Shown piece after piece: positions 10,571-61,625 of a stretch of DNA of 64,000 nt (positions are counted from its first letter, which is position 1; each line of letters starts with the position of its first letter). Where the stretch lies: NCBI GenBank assembly GCA_017643585.1, contig JAEPND010000002.1, positions 212,898 to 276,897 on the forward strand, read 5' to 3'. The translations under genes and the position numbers were made by a program. The notes below the pieces were generated by a model, which saw only the letters and a program-made list of their open reading frames with translations, did not search any database and had not been told where the DNA came from. The stretch is from Maricaulis sp. Its GTDB lineage: Bacteria > Pseudomonadota > Alphaproteobacteria > Caulobacterales > Maricaulaceae.

Positions 10571-10571
<1 letters not shown>
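10167..10571 (-). CDS. Conserved-type hypothetical protein after dnaE
   Basis: A 134-residue protein with no family I can name. It opens MSVFRPYYVLLNLTNLHVPK, has no signal peptide or membrane helix, and ends basic (QRGGTWYSRLVRSFSQRAK). Tyr and Trp are frequent. Its ATG overlaps the dnaE stop as TGATG, so it is very likely translated with dnaE. A GTG three bases upstream is also possible. Its stop falls just before the rpsB promoter. Confidence 0.7.
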
Positions 10572-14023
<3,452 letters not shown>

Positions 14024-14090: not shown

Positions 14091-14186
14091 TCAGGACGCG
14101 CCTAAAATAGAGCCCCACATCGTAATCATCCAGGCGAAGCCGAGAATGGCAGTGGCAGCGGACATATCTTGAATCATGCGGCGCAT
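14091..14186 (-). CDS. 31-residue single-pass membrane peptide, candidate SOS peptide
   Basis: A short frame from ATG at 14186 to TGA at 14091 encodes [11 protein letters not shown], then a hydrophobic helix ([13 protein letters not shown]), ending GSILGAS. A strong GGGAG lies about seven bases before the ATG. Its promoter region has two LexA-type boxes. In Caulobacter the SOS-induced division inhibitor SidA is a 29-residue inner-membrane peptide acting on the divisome (established knowledge). Size, topology and LexA control fit a SidA-like role, but I cannot confirm sequence homology. It ends 67 bases before dnaE and could share its mRNA. A second in-frame ATG at 14177 is less well placed. 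Confidence 0.6.
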
Positions 14187-14205
14187 AACGCTCTCCCGTT
14201 GTCGT

Positions 14206-14220
14206 GTTCTGTATTTGTTC
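14206..14220 (-). promoter_or_regulatory. LexA box 1 (GTTC-N7-GTTC)
   Basis: The plus strand reads GTTC, seven bases, GTTC, the direct-repeat LexA site of alphaproteobacteria. The right half (14217-14220) overlaps the putative -10 of the small membrane peptide gene, a position suited to repression. Confidence 0.75.
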
Positions 14221-14246
14221 TATTCCCGGAACACAGGGAGCGTCAA
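14217..14246 (-). promoter_or_regulatory. Promoter of the small membrane peptide (and possibly dnaE)
   Basis: A minus-strand -35 TTGACG (14241-14246) and -10 TAGAAC (14217-14222) are 18 bases apart. The -10 overlaps LexA box 1, and LexA box 2 lies just upstream of the -35. Transcription would begin about 20 bases before the ATG at 14186. Confidence 0.6.
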
Positions 14247-14264
14247 GAGGTGATTCGAATTTTT

Positions 14265-14279
14265 GTTCCAGATATGTTC
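14265..14279 (-). promoter_or_regulatory. LexA box 2 (GTTC-N7-GTTC)
   Basis: A second exact GTTC-N7-GTTC, centre-to-centre 59 bases from box 1 and five bases from the end of lolD. Two sites bracketing one promoter suggest cooperative or tight repression; this is inferred from spacing. Confidence 0.7.
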
Positions 14280-14283
14280 CGCC

Positions 14284-14973
14284 CTAGGCTTGCTGGAACG
14301 GGACCAGCTGTCCCTCGACCAGCGACACCACGCGGTCCATGCGTTCGGCCAGCTGGTGATTGTGGGTGGCCACCAAGGCTGCGGCACCACGGTCCTTCAC
14401 CGCGGACTGCAAGGCCGAGAACACGTTATCCGAGGTCGCCGGATCAAGATTGCCGGTAGGCTCATCGGCCAGCAGGACATGTGGCTGGTTGGCCAGCGCC
14501 CGTGCAATGGCCACCCGTTGTTGTTCCCCGCCGGACAATTGCGCGGGTGAATGTGTGAGGCGGTCCGCCAGGCCAAGCCCGGACAAGAGACTGGTTGCAT
14601 GCTCCCTCGCCTGTCGCTCCGATGCGCCCGCCACCAGCTGTGGCAGGACAACATTCTCCAGAGCATCAAACTCCGGCAGCAGGTGATGGAATTGATAGAC
14701 AAACCCCACTTCGCTGCGACGCAGGGCCGTGCGCTCGCGGTCGGACAGGTCGCGGGTTGCCGCGCCGCCAATGATCACATCGCCCCCATCGGGACGCTCG
14801 AGCAGGCCGGCGGCGTGGAGCAGCGAGGATTTGCCGGACCCGGACGGGCCGATCAGGCCGACGATCTCGCCCGGCTGCAGGCTGAGCGAAGCGCCCTTGA
14901 GCACGTCCAGCTGCCCCGCCTCGGTGACATAGGTGCGGTGAATATCCTGAAGGTCGAGAACGGGATCACACAT
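14284..14973 (-). CDS. lolD: Lipoprotein-releasing system ATP-binding protein LolD
   Basis: LolD is the ATPase that drives extraction of lipoproteins from the inner membrane to LolA. The 229-residue product has Walker [10 protein letters not shown] (about 42-50), the Q-loop region, the ABC signature [15 protein letters not shown], Walker [13 protein letters not shown] and a switch His in ATHNH. I chose ATG at 14973, which overlaps the lolC stop by eight bases. The in-frame extension to 15066 is Arg/Trp/Cys-rich, lies fully inside lolC and is not protein-like for this family. Confidence 0.96.
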
Positions 14974-16285
14974 AACGCAGCGCCTCCACCGGATCGAGCC
15001 GGGCAGCGCGCCAGGCGGGCGGCAGGGTGACCAGCAGCGACACCACCAGGCCAAAGGTCGAGACAAAGACCACCTCGCCCCAGTCCAGCTCGGCTGGCAC
15101 GCGATAGAGATAATACACGCTGGGATCCCAGACCTGGGCCCCCGCCGTCCAGGTGATGAAGTCCTGGATCGGTCCGATATTCACAACGAAGACAATGCCC
15201 AGCACGATGCCGGCAATTGTACCCAGCATGCCGATCGAAGCGCCCACGATCAGGAATATGCGAAGGATGGCACTCTGCGTCGTGCCCATGGTGCGCAGGA
15301 TGGCGATATCCCGGCTCTTGTTCTTCACCAGCATGACCAGGCCGGAAATGATGTTCAGCGCAGCAATGGCGATCACAATCGCCATGATCATGCGCATAGC
15401 TGTGCGCTCGAACTGGAGCGCGTTGAAATAACCCGGGTCCAGATAGGTGAAGTCATAAACCGGCACCGCATTGTCGACGGCCGCGGAGACGCTCTCCACA
15501 TAGCTCGGGGCGATGCTGTAATCCTCCAGCCGGACCTGGATCATGTCGTGCTGGCCCTCGCGGGAGAAGAAAAGCCGCCCCTGTTCCAGCGGCATGAAGG
15601 CCAGCGCATTGTCGATGGTCGACACGCCCGCCTTGAGAATGGCCCCGACATAATAGGTCTTGCGGCGCGGCGTCACACCGAACGGACCCGAGGCCCCCCG
15701 GGCCGACAGAAAGGTCACCGGATCGCCGACCTGGACCCGCAGCTGATTGGCCACGCCCTCTCCCAGGATGACGATATCGCCGCCATTGCGGCCAACGCCG
15801 AACTCGGACACATCACCGGCCGTGAGCCCGCGCCCGCTGGTTGGGTCATACGTCGCCTGCACCACCGCCATCTGCGCGAAATCCTCCGGCGCGACGGCCA
15901 GGATCTGGATAAAGGCCTCGCCGCCCTGCGTCGTGGCCATGACCTGGCCCTGGACGACCGGATTGGCGCTGACCACGCCGGGGATGTTTTCAATGCGCTC
16001 GACGGACTGTCCCACCCGCTCGTCATCCATCAGGCGCACATCCACATAGACATGCGGATGAAAGCCCAGGAGCTGGTTGTAAAGCTCGGTGCGAAACCCG
16101 TTCATGATCGACAGGATCGCGATCAGGCCTGTCACCGCCAGCATGATGCCCAGGAAGGAAATGATCGCGATCAGCGCCACCCCGCCATGCTTGCGCTTGG
16201 TGCGCAGATAGCGCCCCGCAATCATGAATTCATACGGGCTGAACGGCAATGCGCCAGACGTCTTGCCGGCGGCAGGATTATCCAT
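14966..16285 (-). CDS. lolC: Lipoprotein-releasing ABC transporter permease (LolC/LolE type)
   Basis: This inner-membrane permease pairs with LolD. The 439-residue product has an N-terminal membrane helix after [18 protein letters not shown], a large periplasmic MacB-like domain (about 50-265) and three C-terminal helices including the coupling segment near [19 protein letters not shown] at 16285 overlaps the proS stop by eight bases, and the region upstream in frame is proS-coding. Many alphaproteobacteria have a single permease gene instead of separate lolC and lolE, so the letter is conventional. Confidence 0.94.
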
Positions 16286-60080: not shown

Positions 60081-61625
60081 CTAGGCGTCTTTTTTGGCAG
60101 CTGCCTTTTTGGCCGGAGCTTTTTTAGCAGGGGCCTTTTTCTTGGCCGGAGCCTTTTTCGCCGCAGGCTTCTCGTCCTTGGCGTCAGCCTTTTTCGCAGC
60201 GGCCTTCTTCGCCGGAGCCTTCTTTGCAGCCGGCTTTTTCGGAGCTGCTTTTTTGGCCGGAGACTTTTTCTTGGGCGCGGCCTCGACCTCGTCATCATCC
60301 GCGAAGAGATCCTCACGGGAGACGCTGACTTCGCTCACATCCGCCTGCTCGAGGATGTAGTCGACGACTTTTTCCTCATAGATCGGCGCACGCAGCTGGG
60401 CGATCGCATTCGGGTTCTTCTGGTAGAACTCGACGACCTGGCGTTCCTGACCTGGATAGCGCATGGCTTCCTGGTTCACGGCGCGAGACAGTTCTTCCTG
60501 CGTCACGTCAACATTATTGGCGCGGCCGATTTCCGCCAGCACCAGACCCAGGCGCACACGGCGCTCGGCAATGCCGCGATACTCGTCCTTGAGCTGGTCT
60601 TCAGACTTGTCCTTGTCTTCATCCTCCAGCTGGCCCTGCTCCATTGCGTTGGAGACTTCGCGCCAGATGTTGGAGAATTCCGCTTCCACCATTTTCGGCG
60701 GCAGGTCAAAACTGTGCTCGCTGTCGAGCTGATCGAGGATCACGCGCTTGACCTTCATGCGCGACTGCTGGGCGTGCTCACTCTCGATATTCTTCTTGAG
60801 GATATCCTTGAGGCCATCGAGGTCTTCCAGACCCAAGCGCTTGGCCAGCTCGTCATCGACCTTCGGCTCTTCCGGAGATTCGATGTCCTTGACGGTCACT
60901 TCGAAGACAGCGGCCTTACCGGCCAGGTGCTGGGCCTGATACTGCTCCGGGAAGGTCACGTTCAGCTCGCGTTCTTCGCCACGCTTGGCACCAACCAGCT
61001 GCTCTTCAAAGCCCGGAATGAAGGCGCCGTCGCCGATAGCGACACGGCTATCTTCTGCGGAACCGCCTTCGAAGGCCTCGCCGTCAATCTTGCCAACGAA
61101 ATCGATGACAACGACATCGCCTTCTTCGGCCTTGGCGTTCTTGCCGCCCTTCTTGGCAGCGAAAGAGCGGTTCTTGTCCGCCAGCTCGGCCAGAGATTCG
61201 TCAACCTGGGCGTCAGCCACTTCAGCGACCGGGCGATCGACTTTCAGCTTGGACGGATCTGCCGGTTCAAACTCCGGCATGACTTCCAGGCTGATCTCGA
61301 AAGCGAAATCGGCGCCGCCAGCGACTTCCTTGGCGTCCGACTTGACGCTGATCTCCGGCTGGGAAGCCGGACGAATATTGCGATCGTCGAGTGCTTTCTG
61401 GGTGGTTTCCGGAACCAGCTCGTTGAGCAGGTCGCCCATGATGGATTCGCCAAACATCTTGCGAATGTGCTTGGACGGTACTTTGCCCGGGCGGAAGCCT
61501 TTGAGGCGGACTTCCGGACGGATTTCTTCGATTTTCGCATCCAGGCGAGCTTGCAGATCATCAGCCGCGAAAACGACTTCATACGTGCGGCTCAAGCCTT
61601 CTGATGCTTTCTCGATGACGTTCAT
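60081..61625 (-). CDS. tig: Trigger factor with a Lys/Ala-rich C-terminal tail
   Basis: Trigger factor is the ribosome-bound chaperone and peptidyl-prolyl isomerase. The 514-residue product has the ribosome-binding domain with the GFRPGKVPSKHIRKMFG signature (about 43-59), the FKBP-type domain (about 160-250, GDVVVIDFVGKIDG) and the chaperone arms. After about residue 451 comes a 63-residue tail of repeated KKAPAKKA/AAKK units, resembling the tails of histone H1-like and HU-like bacterial proteins, absent from E. coli Tig (432 residues). It is high in AAG and GCC codons and ends at the stop. Confidence 0.96.
   Translation of the reverse strand: MNVIEKASEGLSRTYEVVFAADDLQARLDAKIEEIRPEVRLKGFRPGKVPSKHIRKMFGESIMGDLLNELVPETTQKALDDRNIRPASQPEISVKSDAKEVAGGADFAFEISLEVMPEFEPADPSKLKVDRPVAEVADAQVDESLAELADKNRSFAAKKGGKNAKAEEGDVVVIDFVGKIDGEAFEGGSAEDSRVAIGDGAFIPGFEEQLVGAKRGEERELNVTFPEQYQAQHLAGKAAVFEVTVKDIESPEEPKVDDELAKRLGLEDLDGLKDILKKNIESEHAQQSRMKVKRVILDQLDSEHSFDLPPKMVEAEFSNIWREVSNAMEQGQLEDEDKDKSEDQLKDEYRGIAERRVRLGLVLAEIGRANNVDVTQEELSRAVNQEAMRYPGQERQVVEFYQKNPNAIAQLRAPIYEEKVVDYILEQADVSEVSVSREDLFADDDEVEAAPKKKSPAKKAAPKKPAAKKAPAKKAAAKKADAKDEKPAAKKAPAKKKAPAKKAPAKKAAAKKDA

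Follow-up and report, generated by a model that had tools for sequence, protein, structure and literature searches.

What is the function of the 31-codon frame that precedes dnaE, behind two LexA-type boxes, in the 64,000-nucleotide stretch of Maricaulis sp. DNA analysed here (the window)? SulA is described as poorly conserved outside Enterobacteriaceae (PMC6851548), so that the SOS division stop is still an open question for many bacterial groups. Based on comparisons of the locus with its relatives and with the sidA locus of Caulobacter, we propose, with a probability of roughly 0.8, that the frame is the local sidA, i.e. that it would encode a LexA-repressed inner-membrane micropeptide delaying cytokinesis after DNA damage.

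The peptide gene, its promoter and its neighbours

The gene order on the minus strand is proS, lolC/E-type permease, lolD-like ATPase, the 31-residue frame and dnaE, with a gap of 67 bp between the last two (Table 1). The first-pass annotation had described a short frame with a strong ribosome-binding site and one membrane helix, together with two exact GTTC-N7-GTTC sites, one of them over the -10 element, and all of this is borne out; the two boxes lie 59 bp apart, and the best 19-residue Kyte-Doolittle mean of the peptide is 1.58, the single helix being a prediction. A purine-rich GGAG-type ribosome site is found in 13/13 genomes of the genus, as judged by eye. The window peptide carries RR at residues 2-3 and no charge beyond residue 10, a pattern that recurs throughout the family: each of its 77 distinct peptides shows K or R somewhere in residues 2-8 and D or E in residues 5-9, with K, R, D and E absent beyond residue 10. 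Across all pairs of the 13 genus genomes pN/pS is 0.243 for the peptide frame, compared with 1.14 and 3.31 for the other two frames, which indicates purifying selection at the protein level. Searches of Pfam gave zero matches for either the window peptide or SidA of Caulobacter vibrioides. PHROGs likewise had no match to the window peptide, and for C. vibrioides SidA it reached no better than E 0.36.

Table 1 Features of the locus, in window coordinates.
Feature	Position	Strand	Basis
lolC/E-type permease	14966..16285	-	387.3 bits, cut-off 362.45
lolD-like ABC ATPase, upstream neighbour	14284..14973	-	best model LolD, 250.9 bits, below cut-off 307.75
Distal LexA box GAACATATCTGGAAC, 4 bp past the lolD stop codon	14265..14279	-	exact GTTC-N7-GTTC
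Promoter TTGACG-N18-TAGAAC (TTGACG 14246-14241, TAGAAC 14222-14217)	14217..14246	-	read from sequence
Proximal LexA box GAACAAATACAGAAC, overlapping -10	14206..14220	-	exact GTTC-N7-GTTC
Ribosome-binding site GGGAG	14193..14197 (14197-14193)	-	read from sequence
31-aa single-helix peptide gene, SidA-like (ATG at 14186, stop ends at 14091)	14091..14186	-	ORF read from the window; peptide in 87/90 family loci; pN/pS 0.243
dnaE, DNA polymerase III alpha subunit	10571..14023	-	1451.6 bits, cut-off 1002

The promoter proposed at the outset is found as well. The hexamers are present in the sequence and TTGAC is kept in 13/13 genus genomes (by eye), whereas a scan for consensus promoters gave no sigma-70-type site between 13000 and 15500. 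The pattern TTGAC-N(17-20)-(T/A)AnAAC occurs in 36/87 loci of the window's family, in 12/75 and 0/9 loci of two other families, and in 1 of 4627 control tiles. No terminator between lolD, the 31-residue frame and dnaE was reported by a consensus scan, and with the gap of 67 bp it is plausible from the sequence that dnaE shares an SOS transcript with the peptide gene. An essential gene such as dnaE should also possess a LexA-independent promoter.

The number of boxes in the window is by itself not striking, as the 4 exact boxes, where 1.81 are expected, are equalled or exceeded in 12 of 100 shuffles; the window-wide count was set aside as stand-alone evidence. Two further exact GTTC-N7-GTTC sites of the window lie at 2281-2295 and 60960-60974. 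Genome-wide, 97 exact boxes compare with 69 for the reversed pattern.

Conservation and relation to Caulobacter SidA

The peptide is too short for a direct scan of the genome collection, and dnaE was used as the anchor for its loci. In the window's family 119 genomes were searched, 110 of which matched the DnaE start, a few only with a second DnaE, and upstream DNA was read for 90 dnaE loci, the window included. Using a family profile at E<=1e-3, in a search repeated with a corrected seed, the peptide was found upstream of dnaE in 87/90 loci, at lengths of 30, 31 or, in two cases, 34 residues. In 69/87 loci the start has an exact box no more than 160 bp away, as opposed to 8 of 778 tiles elsewhere in the same loci, and each of the remaining 18 has a one-mismatch box within 100 bp of the start, compared with 226/5631 control tiles; this placement is thus beyond chance. 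Conservation of frame, boxes and place in relatives, named as a check by the first-pass annotation, is accordingly found.

SidA of Caulobacter is described as an inner-membrane division inhibitor of 29 residues that interacts with FtsW and FtsN (PMC4211646). In published locus tags CCNA_02004 is sidA (PMC10769358), CCNA_02005 an inosine-uridine nucleoside hydrolase (PMC3667746), and under the older numbering dnaE carries the tag CC1926 (PMC1839093). In agreement with these tags, the C. vibrioides DSM 9893 copy (72.4 bits to the NCBIfam model NF033228, div_inhib_SidA, cut-off 35; locus L132) has an inosine-uridine nucleoside hydrolase gene (PF01156, 265.5 bits) on one side and dnaE on the other. 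The comparison set started from the 80 named loci closest to a Caulobacter DnaE, whose titles point mainly to Caulobacter and Phenylobacterium. L140, L161 and L199 were dropped because their upstream DNA was too short; among the 77 kept, L169 and L170 come from the same assembly, and some loci have no genus in their title. A peptide of 29-30 residues precedes dnaE in 75/77 loci, with an exact box in 52 of the 75 (1 of 2529 control tiles) and a one-mismatch box in the other 23/23. The place before dnaE, where the first reading had proposed to compare synteny among relatives, is shared with Caulobacter SidA, and since SidA lies directly upstream of dnaE the window peptide is its positional counterpart.

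The relation is less evident at the level of the curated model. Of 299 genomes of the order, 33 score above the NF033228 cut-off, all of them within the family of C. vibrioides. Even inside that family the model fades, scoring 24.7 bits for a peptide at the equivalent place in one genus (g21); for the window peptide and the whole window genome it gave zero matches at E<=10. With a Caulobacteraceae profile the window frame comes first among 1854 frames, yet at E=1, and E<=1e-3 is reached in 0/90 loci of the window's family. When profile is compared with profile the likeness is clear: hhalign aligns the window-family and SidA profiles from Met1 with a probability of 95.0% (E 4.1e-8), and the ungapped register beats shifts of 1-4, its score being reached by 271 of 100000 column permutations. 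The window-family profile attains E<=1e-3 in 21/77 loci of the Caulobacter set, and its top match is the SidA frame in 75/75 loci, compared with 31.9 expected if candidates were chosen at random; in the reverse direction, the best match of the SidA profile is the correct window-family frame in 43 of the 44 loci giving any match. The window-family profile also aligns with peptides of a further family of the order, f5 (hhalign 88.9%), and between the SidA (f3) and f5 profiles there is no match (0.2%). On this profile similarity, together with the common place, length and LexA boxes, the window peptide is, as far as sequence can tell, a diverged SidA homologue by locus, SidA-like and outside the curated SidA equivalog.

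Paired operators and spread of the arrangement

The peptide promoter typically carries paired LexA boxes. If a pair is defined as two or more non-overlapping boxes in forward orientation, each having no more than one mismatch and lying 130 bp or less from the start, pairs occur in 56/87 loci of the window's family, 73/75 SidA loci and 9/9 f5 loci, in total 138/171 as compared with 7/4976 control tiles; among 12 f5 loci, L086 and L087 were misplaced and L098 offered only a 25-residue candidate, so that these three are scored as misses and nine remain. The spacing seen most often is 25 bp for the window's family and 17-18 bp for SidA loci. Nine other boxes of the window genome, eight before SOS genes (including the ImuA-like match below) and one before an unnamed gene, were inspected over 115-130 bp on either side; eight are single, and uvrA has a weak second box. 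According to PMC12700426, some 97% of the SOS promoters of Caulobacter have a single box, and our guess is that a weaker second box at sidA may have been left out of that count. A peptide that stops growth would need tight repression, the more so with possible read-through from lolD, which may be the reason for the paired operators.

The surroundings of 20 places among the 97 genome boxes, picked mainly by AT-rich spacers, include boxes before lexA, recA, uvrA, ssb, radA, uvrD/pcrA and ruvC. Another precedes a gene that weakly matches ImuA (47 bits against a cut-off of 150), roughly 2.9 kb ahead of a second DnaE; the others lie before genes not known to act in the SOS response or at no evident gene start. 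One exact LexA-type box with an AT-rich spacer (L273:1268-1282, G000:C5:39267-39281) starts 146 bp upstream of a gene resembling mraZ (142.9 bits, under the curated cut-offs) and may be there by chance; mraZ typically opens the division and cell wall cluster. A further box (L278:1265-1279) lies at the start of a 156-residue frame without an NCBIfam match that looks MmcB-like.

A LexA box with a small hydrophobic frame before dnaE is widespread in the loci read, and short of universal. Within the order, three profiles find zero peptides before dnaE in 18/18 loci of family f2 (L081, L082, L090, L094-L097, L100-L110), and the peptide is seen in only 3/11 loci of family f4; it is also present at L061-L077, L111-L114 and L124-L130, which are outside the counts. 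From other orders 40 dnaE loci in 40 genomes were read, drawn from 128 genomes that matched and for the most part from the high-ranking ones. An exact forward box lies within 650 bp in 10/40, and in 9 of these 10 a hydrophobic frame of 24-40 residues begins 25-90 bp after the box, the tenth having a 47-residue GTG frame of similar type 44 bp after it. At random positions in the 30 box-less loci such a frame follows in 413 of 13800 cases (3.0%), and 7/30 of these loci have one anywhere. Box and frame recur in three families outside the order, in 16/29 (f9), 20/22 (f46) and 2/5 (f130) loci, where 29 of 30, 22 of 25 and 5 of 5 follow-up loci could be scored. Outside the order the case is built on box, place and hydrophobic frame, homology by sequence not being established class-wide. 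We regard it as likely that an old checkpoint module of the Alphaproteobacteria combines LexA operators, a one-helix micropeptide and dnaE; within it SidA would be one branch of a multi-order family, paired operators the hallmark of the window's order, and the peptide a fast-changing one hidden from annotation. Among the papers listed by literature searches on SidA homologues, in a collection that does not include the original SidA paper, none is by its listing about SidA-type division inhibitors outside Caulobacter.

Proposed function and comparison with known systems

We propose that the local SidA operates as follows. In cells with intact DNA, LexA on the two operators, one over the -10 element, would keep the gene off, and RecA-driven LexA cleavage would free the promoter. 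The peptide would then insert as a single helix, its N-terminus probably inside because of RR at residues 2-3 and the lack of charge past residue 10, and hold the late divisome (FtsW/FtsI/FtsN) in an inactive state, in the manner of Caulobacter SidA. FtsW was compared using five picks, two of which are MurD and were left out. At the Caulobacter positions A31, F145 and A246, which are linked to the action of SidA, the FtsW of the window genome has V, F and A; A31K in FtsW is described as relieving SidA (PMC4211646), and low-confidence AlphaFold 3 models place SidA on TM7 of FtsW (PMC13396833). The mechanism is most likely that of SidA, with an altered contact near FtsW residue 31. The reading as a SidA-type peptide, already suggested by the first-pass annotation, is supported by SidA's place before dnaE and by the conserved frame and LexA boxes; LexA binding, induction, topology, division arrest and FtsW as the target are what we infer. 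In one other genome (G134, L299), FtsW has T at the position of Caulobacter A246; in Caulobacter, the FtsW substitution A246T suppresses both SidA and DidA.

Other explanations of the locus were weighed against this proposal. LexA boxes and one short helix would also fit an SOS-induced membrane peptide of the TisB/DinQ kind, which slows the cell by disturbing the membrane and not by binding the divisome; DinQ is described as an SOS-regulated toxic single-transmembrane peptide (PMC3567139). The window peptide is, however, the locus counterpart of SidA, which makes such a toxin improbable. TisB is a charged amphipathic helix, whereas the 77/77 family peptides free of K, R, D and E past residue 10 differ from it in this respect.

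The proximity of dnaE, 67 bp away with no terminator reported in between, could instead point to a leader frame acting in cis, with dnaE tuned by its translation and the peptide itself idle. Such a role is very unlikely given the protein-level selection (pN/pS 0.243), a spacing to dnaE that varies among genomes and the gene's own LexA-box promoter, and SidA for its part acts as a protein. That the frame arose by chance within a LexA-controlled dnaE promoter might be entertained because 31 codons are short, but its presence in 87/90 family loci and its pN/pS make this hardly credible. Both the leader-only and the chance reading were set aside on conservation.

With the local SidA as the preferred reading, a micropeptide at a fixed place before dnaE would provide a ready test in many alphaproteobacteria, and aligned peptide variants together with FtsW could reveal the residues that meet. 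The peptide's place also ties a checkpoint gene to the gene of the replicative polymerase.

Among known systems, YneA, SosA and ChiZ of other phyla are described as small DNA-damage-induced membrane proteins acting on late division, a likeness to the window peptide by description alone, and YneA and ChiZ differ in carrying a LysM domain (PMC13396833). DidA of Caulobacter is likewise presented as a small membrane-associated division inhibitor, but one that is SOS-independent, activated by DriD and bound to FtsN (PMC4211646). From Caulobacter SidA itself the window peptide differs in being only 24% identical to the C. vibrioides copy, in its tail WGSILGAS, in the two exact boxes at 59 bp from each other and in having no match to the curated model. 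It resembles SidA in its place before dnaE, its length of about 30 residues, its one hydrophobic segment and its LexA boxes, and in an ungapped register from Met1 that shares D/E7, A10 and G16-F17-x-W19-M20.
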